NCBI GenBank assembly: GCA_902573115.1
Contig: CACGIM010000005.1
Coordinates: 1-42,565, forward strand
Source of the DNA: an uncultured Candidatus Poseidoniales archaeon
GTDB taxonomy: Archaea > Thermoplasmatota > Poseidoniia > Poseidoniales > Thalassarchaeaceae
Direction of reading: 5' to 3'
Length of the DNA stretch: 42,565 bases
Of the stretch, positions 8,602-33,792 are shown one piece after another; positions within the stretch are counted from its first letter, which is position 1; each line of letters begins with the position of its first letter. A model generated the notes under the pieces. It ran no database searches and was not told the origin of the DNA. It saw nothing but the letters and a program-made list of their open reading frames with translations. The position numbers were made by a program, and so were the translations under genes.

Positions 8602-10947
8602 CTACCAATCAAATAAAGATGCCTGAATCCGACTCCTTCTAAACGCTGATTCAAATTTTGACAGGTGCAAATTGGATACCGCTCTTGCTGCGGATTCTAA
8701 AGCGGCACCGGAGGTTCCAATTTCCATACCAAAAGCATCACCAATAAATGAGACGCCATTTTTTGATAACACTGATTCAGGGCCCGAGAAAGGCGTGCTG
8801 TATCTCCACTTGTGAGACTTCCATCCATCACTACACAAACCCATTCTTTCAGAAATTATTTTTGTTATTTGATCTAAGCTATTTTCAATTAATATTTCGC
8901 TATAATCCGAAGAAAGCTCTACTAGCAACGTCGAATCGTCTACTTTAGTTAGATTATATCCTTCAGGAACCGTTTGTGGGATATCTTGAAAGGGCCCCCA
9001 TGAGATAATTTTGGAATAACTTTGCCCCATAATTTCTAGCCCCAACCAACTGGCTATCACGATGGCCTGCTCCACAGGAACTGCCACTATGACTTTGTCA
9101 TGGGTTGATACATTCACATCTCCATCAAAATCCCTAGTTAGCCTCACTCCATTTTTGATGACATCTATGTGTGTTATCCTTTGGCTGAGACGAACGTCTG
9201 ATCCTTGAGACAAATGATTTAGAAGGTCTGGAATAGGCTTGAGAGGTATCAGAGTGGACCCATTACGCTTAACAAACCCAAGCCTTTCCCACTCTTCGGT
9301 AAATCTATCCATCCATCTCGGGATGGAATCCAAGGATCTTGACCCCAAATGAAAGATTTCGCCACTGTCTGTATTCCAACCCGTTAGCCTACCACCTATC
9401 CGAGCACCCTTGTCCCAAATGGTCACCTTGTGGCCAAGATCGGTGAGTAGCCTAGCAGCAAACATTCCCGACAACCCGCCTCCAATAATTCCTATATCCA
9501 AAGGAATACCTCCGGCCGGCCTATTTGTTATATCGACGTATTCTGCAATGTCTATACGGTTCTGGTGGGACAGAGTAGGTCTTTTACGAATTTTACCCAT
9601 TACCGCGTCTACAGGTCCGAATGCTCTGTCGAAAAGTCCGAAGCACCATTGAACTCCAGCTATCGAACTAGGATCTCTACCATCAAGCGCAAATCTGTTA
9701 TTCTGTTCTAACGCAATTTTCATTGCTTCTTCAGGGTCATCTACCCAATTTGCAAACGCTTTTCCCCATGTCATCCTAACATTATTATGCATTGTTCCGT
9801 GTCTGACTAAACCTGTCTGTGCAGAATCCCAGAGGACATCTCCGGTGCAACTTCTCTCCAACTCCATCGGTGATAACTCGGATATTGTTCCGGTTCTATC
9901 CGCCCATGATGAACTTGCCCACTCGGGAATATTCGACCATCGTTCAGGATGTTTTAACGCATGGGCATGGTGTTGTGCATGTTCCCTGAATACAAGCATC
10001 TCATCAAGAAACTTCTCTGCCCCTTTGCCTCCTATCGCTGAGGTTTCCCTTACGATTTGTGTCACAGATATCATGCCATAATGGATCCAAGGGGACATTC
10101 CGCTAACCCCATCTCTCAAGGCAGCATTGTTTCTGTTCAAGTGGTATCGCCTAAGTCCTGTTTTACACCAATTTTCCCAACGGGCTGTCGCAGATGAAGA
10201 ACCCCCTCGTAGTTCTTTAACAGGTACTACGGTGGGGTCAATGTCACAACCGGACATAAGCTCCGCACCTCCATCATTTGTTAGCTCAAGCCGTACATCA
10301 ACAGGGCTAAAGGGTGGATTCCATGTTTCTGGCATTCCTTTGGGCCGCAACTTCATTCTAGGCCAATTTAGGCTTGCCCGTTTCTTCATCTGGTTTTTTG
10401 TGGCTTCTCTGAATCTAAAGGGCCTGTCAATTGTTTTACCAAAAACAGGCCTTGGCAAAACACAATGTGAGTCTACCTCCACTAAACAACAATTTCCGTA
10501 CAACCTTTCTGACCAACTAGCCCATGGCTCAAGATCAACCATATCGGTAATTACCAACCCTGACTCCTTAGCCAATTCAATAAGATATGGCCCCCTACTT
10601 CCCTTTCTAGATACATGAACGATGTGATCAACACCTAAGGACTCAGCTCTGTCTGCTACATCTGCAGCCCCTTCGAGTAAGAATCTGTGATGTCTGTAGG
10701 AAGCGTGAGGGTACCTTTCATCGATCCCATGGTATATGAGCAGCGGAACGTCTTTTGTTGAAGCAATATGGATCGCAGTGTCGAATGTCGGGCACTCATC
10801 TAACCTGATCGCCGTTCGCATCCAGTGCAATACGAATGAAGGGTTTTCACAGACCCTATTTGATTTGATTAGACACCGTTCTTCCAGGTGTTCAGGTAAG
10901 CCGAGTTCTTGGAGCACAGAACGGAATAGATGTATGAACCATTTCAA
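8602..10947 (-). CDS. Fusion protein: N-terminal class II-like DNA photolyase, C-terminal FAD-dependent amine-oxidase/renalase-like domain
   Basis: 781 aa in one frame. Photolyase part: VLHWMRTAIRLDECPTFDTAI, LVRHGTMHNNVRMTWGKAFANW, ALEQNNRFALDGRDPSSIAGVQWCFGLFDRAFGP. C-terminal part: IGIIGGGLSGMFAARLLTDLGHKVTIWDKGARIGGRLT; switch at about 9510. Confidence 0.9.
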   Translation of the reverse strand: MKWFIHLFRSVLQELGLPEHLEERCLIKSNRVCENPSFVLHWMRTAIRLDECPTFDTAIHIASTKDVPLLIYHGIDERYPHASYRHHRFLLEGAADVADRAESLGVDHIVHVSRKGSRGPYLIELAKESGLVITDMVDLEPWASWSERLYGNCCLVEVDSHCVLPRPVFGKTIDRPFRFREATKNQMKKRASLNWPRMKLRPKGMPETWNPPFSPVDVRLELTNDGGAELMSGCDIDPTVVPVKELRGGSSSATARWENWCKTGLRRYHLNRNNAALRDGVSGMSPWIHYGMISVTQIVRETSAIGGKGAEKFLDEMLVFREHAQHHAHALKHPERWSNIPEWASSSWADRTGTISELSPMELERSCTGDVLWDSAQTGLVRHGTMHNNVRMTWGKAFANWVDDPEEAMKIALEQNNRFALDGRDPSSIAGVQWCFGLFDRAFGPVDAVMGKIRKRPTLSHQNRIDIAEYVDITNRPAGGIPLDIGIIGGGLSGMFAARLLTDLGHKVTIWDKGARIGGRLTGWNTDSGEIFHLGSRSLDSIPRWMDRFTEEWERLGFVKRNGSTLIPLKPIPDLLNHLSQGSDVRLSQRITHIDVIKNGVRLTRDFDGDVNVSTHDKVIVAVPVEQAIVIASWLGLEIMGQSYSKIISWGPFQDIPQTVPEGYNLTKVDDSTLLVELSSDYSEILIENSLDQITKIISERMGLCSDGWKSHKWRYSTPFSGPESVLSKNGVSFIGDAFGMEIGTSGAALESAARAVSNLHLSKFESAFRRSRIQASLFDW

Positions 10948-14207: not shown

Positions 14208-15008
14208 GTGAAGAGATCACTATCTAAGAACCCGAACATGCTCAGAACTATGATCGGGACCGGTCTAACGCTGATAGTACTACTAGCCTTCGCGGTCTAT
14301 TCCAACACTGTAGACTCGGAGTACTACGAATACACCACGACGAACGAGAACCAACAGATGGATCTAACATCTGAGGAGGAGGGCCAATCCGAATGGTATT
14401 ACTCTACTAACGATGCCATAACATGGGTGAACTTTTCAGTTGATGGGGCGCCAGTGGGTTCCGTATTAATCGTGGAGGCGGAAGGAACCAACTGGTCGCA
14501 TTCTCCCAGCCTAGGGTTGGAAGATTCAAACTATATTTGCAATGAGCCAGAGTCGGATTACTCTAGTTTGATAGAGACTTGCGATTACAGTAGGACGCAT
14601 TCAATCGTCCTAGAAAGTGGAAATGGCACTCTAAGGGGCAGAGTTTCTCTAGAGCTGCCAATCAAGGGGAAGGGCTATCTTGAGAGCTCGAGCATAGAGG
14701 AAGCCACAGAAAGGGCACAACAAATGGTCTCAGATGCCAAAAGGACGATAACCTGGAAGATTTCAATAAGCCAAGATGACGAGATAGTTCCCAGCGCCGG
14801 ATTGCTGGTTTCTGGAGACTATGCCAAGCACGAACTGACCGGGTTAGAAAAATTCAAAATTGATCCAATCCAGGAAACAGTTTACAGTTTCTCGGCCCTG
14901 GTCGGTTGCTTCTTCATGGCACTAGTAGTGCCTCTTATGATTTATTTCGCGGCTAGATATAGGGAGAAAAAAGATGAGGAAAAAAGATCAAGCATCGAAG
15001 AAGAATGA
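14208..15008 (+). CDS. Hypothetical membrane-anchored protein
   Basis: 266 aa, N-terminal TM, extracytoplasmic region, C-terminal TM and charged tail. Confidence 0.7.
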   Translation: MKRSLSKNPNMLRTMIGTGLTLIVLLAFAVYSNTVDSEYYEYTTTNENQQMDLTSEEEGQSEWYYSTNDAITWVNFSVDGAPVGSVLIVEAEGTNWSHSPSLGLEDSNYICNEPESDYSSLIETCDYSRTHSIVLESGNGTLRGRVSLELPIKGKGYLESSSIEEATERAQQMVSDAKRTITWKISISQDDEIVPSAGLLVSGDYAKHELTGLEKFKIDPIQETVYSFSALVGCFFMALVVPLMIYFAARYREKKDEEKRSSIEEE

Positions 15009-15065: not shown

Positions 15066-15131
15066 TTAACAGCATCCATCGCAAGAACAGCTTGGACCAC
15101 ATGGGTCACAATCACAACATTCACAGGGCAT
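15066..15131 (-). CDS. Candidate cysteine-rich micropeptide (21 aa, 9 Cys), metallothionein-like; not in supplied ORF track
   Basis: Minus-strand translation ATG...TAA: MPCECCDCDPCGPSCSCDGCC. TATA-like TAAATAAT starts 27 nt upstream of the ATG (leaderless spacing). Confidence 0.65.
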   Translation of the reverse strand: MPCECCDCDPCGPSCSCDGCC

Positions 15132-15150
15132 GATGTACGGTAATCGGATT

Positions 15151-15158
15151 ATTATTTA
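15151..15158 (-). promoter_or_regulatory. Candidate TATA box (TAAATAAT) for the Cys-rich micropeptide
   Basis: AT element at the spacing expected for leaderless archaeal transcription. Confidence 0.45.
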
Positions 15159-15219
15159 GATGTGTCTGAATTATTAATCAACGATGTCGGCCTTTCTGAA
15201 ATGAAAGTTTCTTCCAGAA

Positions 15220-15564
15220 CTAATTATTTGGATTAGTTCTGATGTTAGTAATTTCCGCATAACCTAGTTCCAGGAAGTGGGCTATTGACTTGCTAACTCT
15301 TTCGGACACCGGGGATATCTTCTCTGCAAATTCTTCATCCATTGCATTCATGATCTCCTCAATTGTGTTCTTTCCATCCATCAAAAGCCAAAGTTTTGAA
15401 TTCATATCGTCAAGTGATCTTCTAACTTTTTTAGGTGCTTTAAATATGTCAGATATCTTTGTTTCAAACTTACCTAAGATCTTATCGACAGTTATTACTA
15501 CCAGTCCGTGACCATTAATCTCCCAATCAACATCGGCCCTTTTTGGAATCAGCCCGTTCCCCAT
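15220..15564 (-). CDS. Stand-alone PqqD-like (RRE-type winged-helix) protein
   Basis: IPKRADVDWEINGHGLVVITVDK...VRRSLDDMNSKLWLLMDGKNTIEEIMNAMDEEFAEKISPVSERVSKSIAHFLELGYAEI matches the PqqD-like pattern; ATG at 15564 overlaps the upstream stop (TAATG). Confidence 0.8.
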   Translation of the reverse strand: MGNGLIPKRADVDWEINGHGLVVITVDKILGKFETKISDIFKAPKKVRRSLDDMNSKLWLLMDGKNTIEEIMNAMDEEFAEKISPVSERVSKSIAHFLELGYAEITNIRTNPNN

Positions 15565-15734
15565 TAGAACACCGACGATATTAGCCAAGCGGAGGACAAA
15601 ATCCCTAATGTGACAAATCCTATTAATTTCCTCTTTCCTAATCTAAAGTTGCTTGCCCACCAAGTACCAACTCCGCTCAAGGACATCAAGAATAATGCGA
15701 TCGACTCTGCTGAATTCAGAGACCCAGATGTCAA
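15564..15734 (-). CDS. 56-aa mini membrane protein (2 predicted TM); not in supplied ORF track
   Basis: TTG start 1 nt after the flavin reductase stop, stop overlaps PqqD-like start (TAATG): MTSGSLNSAESIALFLMSLSGVGTWWASNFRLGKRKLIGFVTLGILSSAWLISSVF. Confidence 0.7.
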   Translation of the reverse strand: MTSGSLNSAESIALFLMSLSGVGTWWASNFRLGKRKLIGFVTLGILSSAWLISSVF

Positions 15735-33467: not shown

Positions 33468-33792
33468 CAGTAATTAGTGGGCATGTCCTCGGTGGACGCT
33501 CGTCACCAGTGAAAATCTGGCACCAATCTCCTCCGTCCCGCATTCCCAAGGCATCCAGCATCCCCGGTCGGGCTGCTCGCTTCCGCGCCTGACCTGGTTC
33601 CCGGGCTTGAGACGTTTTCCAGCTCCCTCCGGAGCGGGTTATCGCCAACCTGGATCTCTTGGGGGCGAGACATCGACGTCAACCGGTACTTTCCCAGAGG
33701 CTCGTCTGCGCCGCCCTCGGACTTCGGGTCACCATTTTCGACGATTTGTGAAAAATAGAGCACGTCAACTCCCCCCCTAGCCCAAATTACGC
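33468..33792 (-). ncRNA. ffs: Archaeal signal recognition particle (7S/SRP) RNA
   Basis: Minus strand has helix 8 CCAGGTCAGGCGCGGAAGCGAGCAGCC (GGAA loop), helix 6 GCTCC-GGAG-GGAGC, and terminal closing helix GTAATTTGGGC (5') with GCCCACTAATTAC (3'); GC-rich island compared with flanks. Ends approximate. Confidence 0.95.

Follow-up and report, generated by a model that had tools for sequence, protein, structure and literature searches.

A conserved 21-codon micro-gene of Poseidoniales encodes a nine-cysteine peptide with a putative role in zinc buffering

Can a reading frame of only 21 codons be a gene, and what might a peptide serve for in which nine residues are cysteine? This question is raised by a short minus-strand frame in the window, by which we mean the whole 42,565-nt stretch of DNA analyzed here (contig C5 of Poseidoniales genome G000; assembly 0.98 Mb, 63% complete). 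An earlier note on this DNA had described the frame as an unlisted peptide gene in an otherwise empty intergenic region and had proposed either a metallothionein or a substrate for modification by neighboring genes. Translation of the frame gave the peptide described there, with Cys at residues 3, 5, 6, 8, 11, 15, 17, 20, and 21 of 21. It is 43% Cys, acidic, and soluble, contains no His, and has its nine Cys packed in 19 residues with Asp as the sole other likely ligand. The region is indeed empty otherwise: the convergent membrane-protein gene ends ~58 nt away, and on the other side the next gene lies at a distance of 89 nt. Positions of these features, together with further annotated features of the window, are listed in Table 1.

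Table 1. Annotated features of the window, with strand and supporting observations (promoter positions are counted from the ATG)
Feature	Position	Strand	Observations
21-codon micro-gene, MPCECCDCDPCGPSCSCDGCC + TAA	15066..15131	-	Translation, conservation, coding selection
TATA box, TAAATAAT	15151..15158	-	-27..-20, within conserved block -32..-18 (15149-15163)
Upstream conserved block, TAATAATT (consensus TATTAATT)	15169..15176	-	-45..-38
Convergent neighbor, membrane protein without known function	14208..15008	+	In 24/28 genus genomes; outside the system
Upstream neighbor, PqqD-like protein	15220..15588	-	Pfam PF05402, E 4.9e-4, below cut-off
781-aa ORF	8602..10947	-	Amine-oxidase/NAD-binding domain at C-terminal end; ~480 N-terminal residues with no Pfam match at E<=1e-5
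Molybdopterin oxidoreductase, 846 aa	17551..20091	-	Formate-dehydrogenase-like
Archaeal SRP RNA gene	33475..33787	-	Rfam RF01857

Homologs of the peptide were collected as complete copies (n=44), every one of which is 21 aa long. Eight Cys are invariant among them and Cys3 is present in 43/44, while Pro10, Gly12, and Asp18 are near-invariant besides Cys. Third codon positions vary at 20 of 20 codons, first positions at 11, and second positions at 9; TGT and TGC interchange at every Cys codon, the stop codon can be TGA, TAA, or TAG, and the start codon ATG or GTG. Mean pN was 0.143 and mean pS 0.869 in these copies (pN/pS 0.16). Because Cys residues are fixed while third positions and stops vary, and because pN/pS is low, selection acts on the peptide and not on RNA or DNA. 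The 21-residue frame is confirmed as a real conserved micro-gene, far beyond chance, and the synonymous variation of Cys codons that the earlier note had named as a check was found.

The gene is widespread in the order and appears to be restricted to it. Of 150 family genomes searched, 34 gave a match at E<=10, mostly at <=1e-3. Using a profile of 29 variants at E<=1e-3, homologs were found in ~49/324 Poseidoniales genomes, which include members of both families, and 12/22 genera had a match at the looser threshold of E<=1. Among 393 genomes sampled from the phylum, real matches were confined to Poseidoniales; two weak matches outside the order turned out to be 12-residue chance matches without the C-terminal Cys and were rejected. 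A loose Cys pattern run over genome contigs returned mostly (TGY)n repeats, with two real peptides among the matches listed, apparently from Poseidoniales; since the pattern was swamped by these repeats, it probes the absence of the gene outside this phylum only in part. By tblastn, phages and plasmids contained no match, and two strict Cys patterns had zero matches in viral contigs, by which a viral origin was rejected. Decay of the gene is visible in individual copies: the G130 copy has no Cys3, a copy in G186 (L366; G186:C20:741-803) has lost its start codon, and a copy in G066 (L081; G066:C1:406485-406547) has lost its first third.

The peptide gene also has a conserved upstream region. 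When 46 upstream regions were aligned ungapped at the start codon and their information content was determined, two conserved blocks emerged (Table 1), and a pyrimidine was favored at -1, before the A of the ATG. The TATA-like element that had been reported 27 nt before the ATG lies inside the proximal block. In view of the blocks, the TATA spacing, and the -1 pyrimidine, this layout fits a leaderless transcript starting at the A of the ATG, and the gene possesses its own conserved, apparently leaderless promoter. Allowing <=2 mismatches, the two-block pattern occurred 11 times in 28 genus genomes, every time at the peptide; the window's own copy exceeds the two mismatches allowed in this search.

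With its promoter, the gene occurs in ~25 different neighborhoods, on which grounds an explanation by an operon or a partner gene was rejected. At the window locus, synteny of the flanking genes extends throughout the genus. In 21 congeners just 31-79 nt separate the membrane-protein gene from the PqqD-like gene, and the peptide is missing there; the distance is 217-231 nt, with the peptide inside, in G000 and G130 alone. The empty sites in 21 genomes therefore indicate gain of a short gene-plus-promoter segment at this locus (or its loss in the other genomes), and the neighbors are incidental. The history of the gene is separate from that of its neighbors. This bears on the second proposal of the earlier note, a RiPP-like precursor matured by neighbors such as the PqqD-like protein, whose RRE fold and distance of 89 nt in the window invite the idea. 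As the gene stands alone in ~25 contexts, which share no common enzyme, and as the PqqD-like gene keeps its position in 21 congeners that have no peptide there, modification by neighbors is unsupported; there is no leader peptide within the 21 aa either, and we consider such a precursor extremely unlikely. Even less credence is due to a Cys-codon leader peptide that regulates the downstream gene through ribosome stalling. Very small size, Cys richness, and a promoter of its own would suit this role, which is barely conceivable given that the downstream gene varies by context and in many cases, that of the window included, is convergent, that Asp, Gly, and Pro are also under selection, and that no conserved sequence was found downstream.

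Some of these neighborhoods point to zinc. Many genomes contain a conserved zinc island comprising a NikR-like regulator, a ZnuA-ZnuC-ZnuB set divergent from it, a DUF1636-like protein, and a COG0523 GTPase with a CxCC motif (L463:5652-13324, with equivalents in L466, L468, L470, and L476). It is unusual for a ZnuABC importer to be accompanied by a NikR-like regulator rather than a Zur-like one. ZnuA is commonly ~590-1090 aa long with a big His/Asp-rich insert between its two halves; ZnuA of the window genome (G000:C9, L463:6174-8858) has ~894 aa. The peptide gene abuts the island in four independent contexts. In G124, it is located 67 bp from the NikR-family regulator, itself divergent from a ZnuA-ZnuC-ZnuB operon, and Pfam confirmed NikR_C, ZnuA, ABC_tran, and ABC-3 there. 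The peptide gene lies 35 bp from a DUF1636-like gene in G048/G056 and 205 bp downstream of one in G075, and in G058 it is divergent from a COG0523 gene at 154 bp; in two more contexts (the G082 group and G004) it is found within ~12 kb of the zinc island. Counted over 17 contexts, which are neighborhoods merged by shared flanks, by hand and after the pattern had been seen, 4/17 are within 2.5 kb of the island and 6/17 within 12 kb (binomial P ~1e-5). Most peptide contexts, the window's included, are away from zinc genes, and the island of the window genome is on contig C9.

Peptide and zinc genes also co-occur, at Fisher P values that are inflated by the relatedness of the genomes. In Poseidoniaceae, ZnuA was found in 30/33 peptide genomes vs 46/117 others (odds ratio 15) and COG0523 in 24/33 vs 22/117. 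Either or both were present in 31/33 peptide genomes, the remaining two being 62-63% complete. ZnuA is commoner than the peptide, with 46 genomes carrying ZnuA but no peptide, and in family f2 there was no clear excess of ZnuA (12/15 peptide genomes vs 110/174 overall). On the genus tree, about three independent clades are concordant and one is discordant. A PstS-like phosphate-binding protein used as control co-occurs with the peptide as well (13/33 vs 8/117) and is not adjacent to it, so the co-occurrence with zinc genes may partly mirror a nutrient-poor niche. Physical linkage is thus the stronger evidence for a role in zinc metabolism.

The zinc island also offers a candidate regulator. 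Between the NikR-like and ZnuA genes, an inverted repeat CTAATAAT-N16-ATTATTAG is nearly perfect in most genomes; seen at L463, L466, L472, and L473, it is a likely operator, and its 16-nt spacing is that of E. coli NikR. Promoters of COG0523 genes score above background for this element. The resemblance of peptide promoters is weak: 35% score >=12/16 vs 6% of an AT-matched intergenic background, with related sequences fully weighted. The -45..-38 block might form one half, the left one, of a NikR-like operator, with the right half overlapping the TATA box; this is suggestive only.

What, then, does the peptide resemble? Aromatic residues are absent from all 29 distinct sequences, and the CxCC, CxC, and CC motifs are conserved. 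Together with 9/21 Cys, where ~30% Cys or more is typical of metallothioneins, these are metallothionein traits. No member of the 29 matched Pfam-A or NCBIfam at E<=10, in line with its description as unlisted, and no match was found in the PDB. The peptide thus appears metallothionein-like in its traits, yet matches none of the named metallothionein family models in Pfam/NCBIfam.

Bacterial metallothioneins also employ His ligands. Fungal copper metallothioneins such as those of Neurospora and Agaricus have ~20-25 aa, seven Cys, and one short cluster with CxC motifs. Our peptide is similar in size, in the single short cluster, and in the CxC motifs, and it differs by nine Cys instead of seven, by its CC pairs, and by its linkage to zinc genes. 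This similarity is the basis for an alternative, a copper(I) buffer built on a polynuclear Cu(I)-thiolate cluster with the nine Cys as ligands. A size near the ~25 aa of the fungal proteins favors it, and Cys-only ligands without His suit Cu(I) as well as Zn(II). The genomic linkage, however, goes to ZnuABC/COG0523, and P-type metal ATPases, near-universal in these genomes, showed no association with the peptide (27/33 vs 104/117), so that copper buffering is unlikely.

Closer in setting is BmtA of marine Synechococcus, where ZnuABC is paired with this metallothionein under one zinc sensor; BmtA is regulated by Zur and can hold as many as four Zn (PMC9337993). SmtA/BmtA, and especially Synechococcus BmtA, are likewise small and Cys-rich, with a gene that goes with ZnuABC, a low-zinc surface-ocean host, and probable zinc storage (PMC9337993). 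BmtA is longer, whereas the peptide described here has 21 aa, is Cys-only and archaeal, and lies beside a NikR-like regulator in one context. The beta-domain of mammalian metallothionein shares nine Cys, CxC motifs, and the lack of aromatics, and it binds three divalent metals in a Zn3Cys9 cluster, i.e., with the same ligand count (PMC10243857). It differs in comprising ~30 residues of a two-domain protein, compared with nine Cys in 19 residues and no profile match for the peptide.

Zn3Cys9 is also formed by the nine invariant Cys of CXC domains (PMC3447885), so the peptide might instead be a small zinc-dependent module for binding nucleic acid or protein, a free CXC/pre-SET-like knot. The count of nine invariant Cys, as in MSL2, and the conservation of Pro10, Gly12, and Asp18 beyond Cys agree with this. 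The published consensus, CX[C/H]X2-13CX4-7CXCX5-60CX2-4CX1-2CX2-15CXN (PMC3447885), is broken by the peptide at Cys2-Cys4, its second and third Cys being adjacent and its third and fourth one apart; the peptide is also much shorter, lacks the conserved C-terminal CxN, is mostly acidic, and offers no basic surface for DNA. Such a module is therefore very improbable. A peptide that serves redox chemistry or thiol buffering, or that acts as a scaffold in Fe-S or persulfide chemistry, in either case instead of storing metal, would be compatible with 43% Cys in an acidic, soluble chain devoid of aromatics. Strict spacing of nine Cys throughout the order and linkage to zinc genes are unexpected for a generic thiol buffer, and we rate this explanation as quite improbable.

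The peptide is thus probably a minimal metallothionein-like zinc-thiolate buffer that works beside ZnuABC and COG0523. We prefer this reading because of the parallel with ZnuABC-BmtA in Synechococcus and because the zinc transporter of Poseidoniales has been interpreted as a surface-ocean adaptation (PMC6461757). A stand-alone unit of ~130-180 bp with an apparently leaderless promoter encodes a 21-residue, presumably cytosolic peptide, whose thiolate cluster would most likely enclose two to three ions of Zn(II) (or Cu(I)), and the nine Cys would suit a Zn3Cys9 cluster as in the metallothionein beta-domain. Archaea of zinc-poor surface water would thereby hold a small, cheap, and exchangeable zinc reserve beside a high-affinity importer and a zinc-allocation GTPase. 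Of the two functions suggested in the earlier note, the metallothionein-like one is strengthened, as a putative assignment, by selection on Cys, the gene's own promoter, and the linkage and co-occurrence with zinc genes, while the neighbor-modified substrate is abandoned. More doubtful, and held only tentatively, is a wider proposal: that the peptide represents a previously undescribed archaeal metallothionein family with perhaps the shortest natural Zn3Cys9 cluster, carried by an autonomous mobile unit of ~130-180 bp and placed jointly with ZnuABC and COG0523 under NikR-like instead of Zur/SmtB-type control.

Metallothioneins are scarcely discussed for archaea, and in the literature collection searched the phrase 'archaeal metallothionein' returned no report. 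If the proposed function is true, functional genes as short as 21 codons escape current annotation, and biochemists would gain a minimal nine-cysteine cluster peptide accessible to solid-phase synthesis. For the Poseidoniales themselves, the most abundant archaea of the surface ocean, such a peptide would be a further component in the cycling of zinc in the sea.
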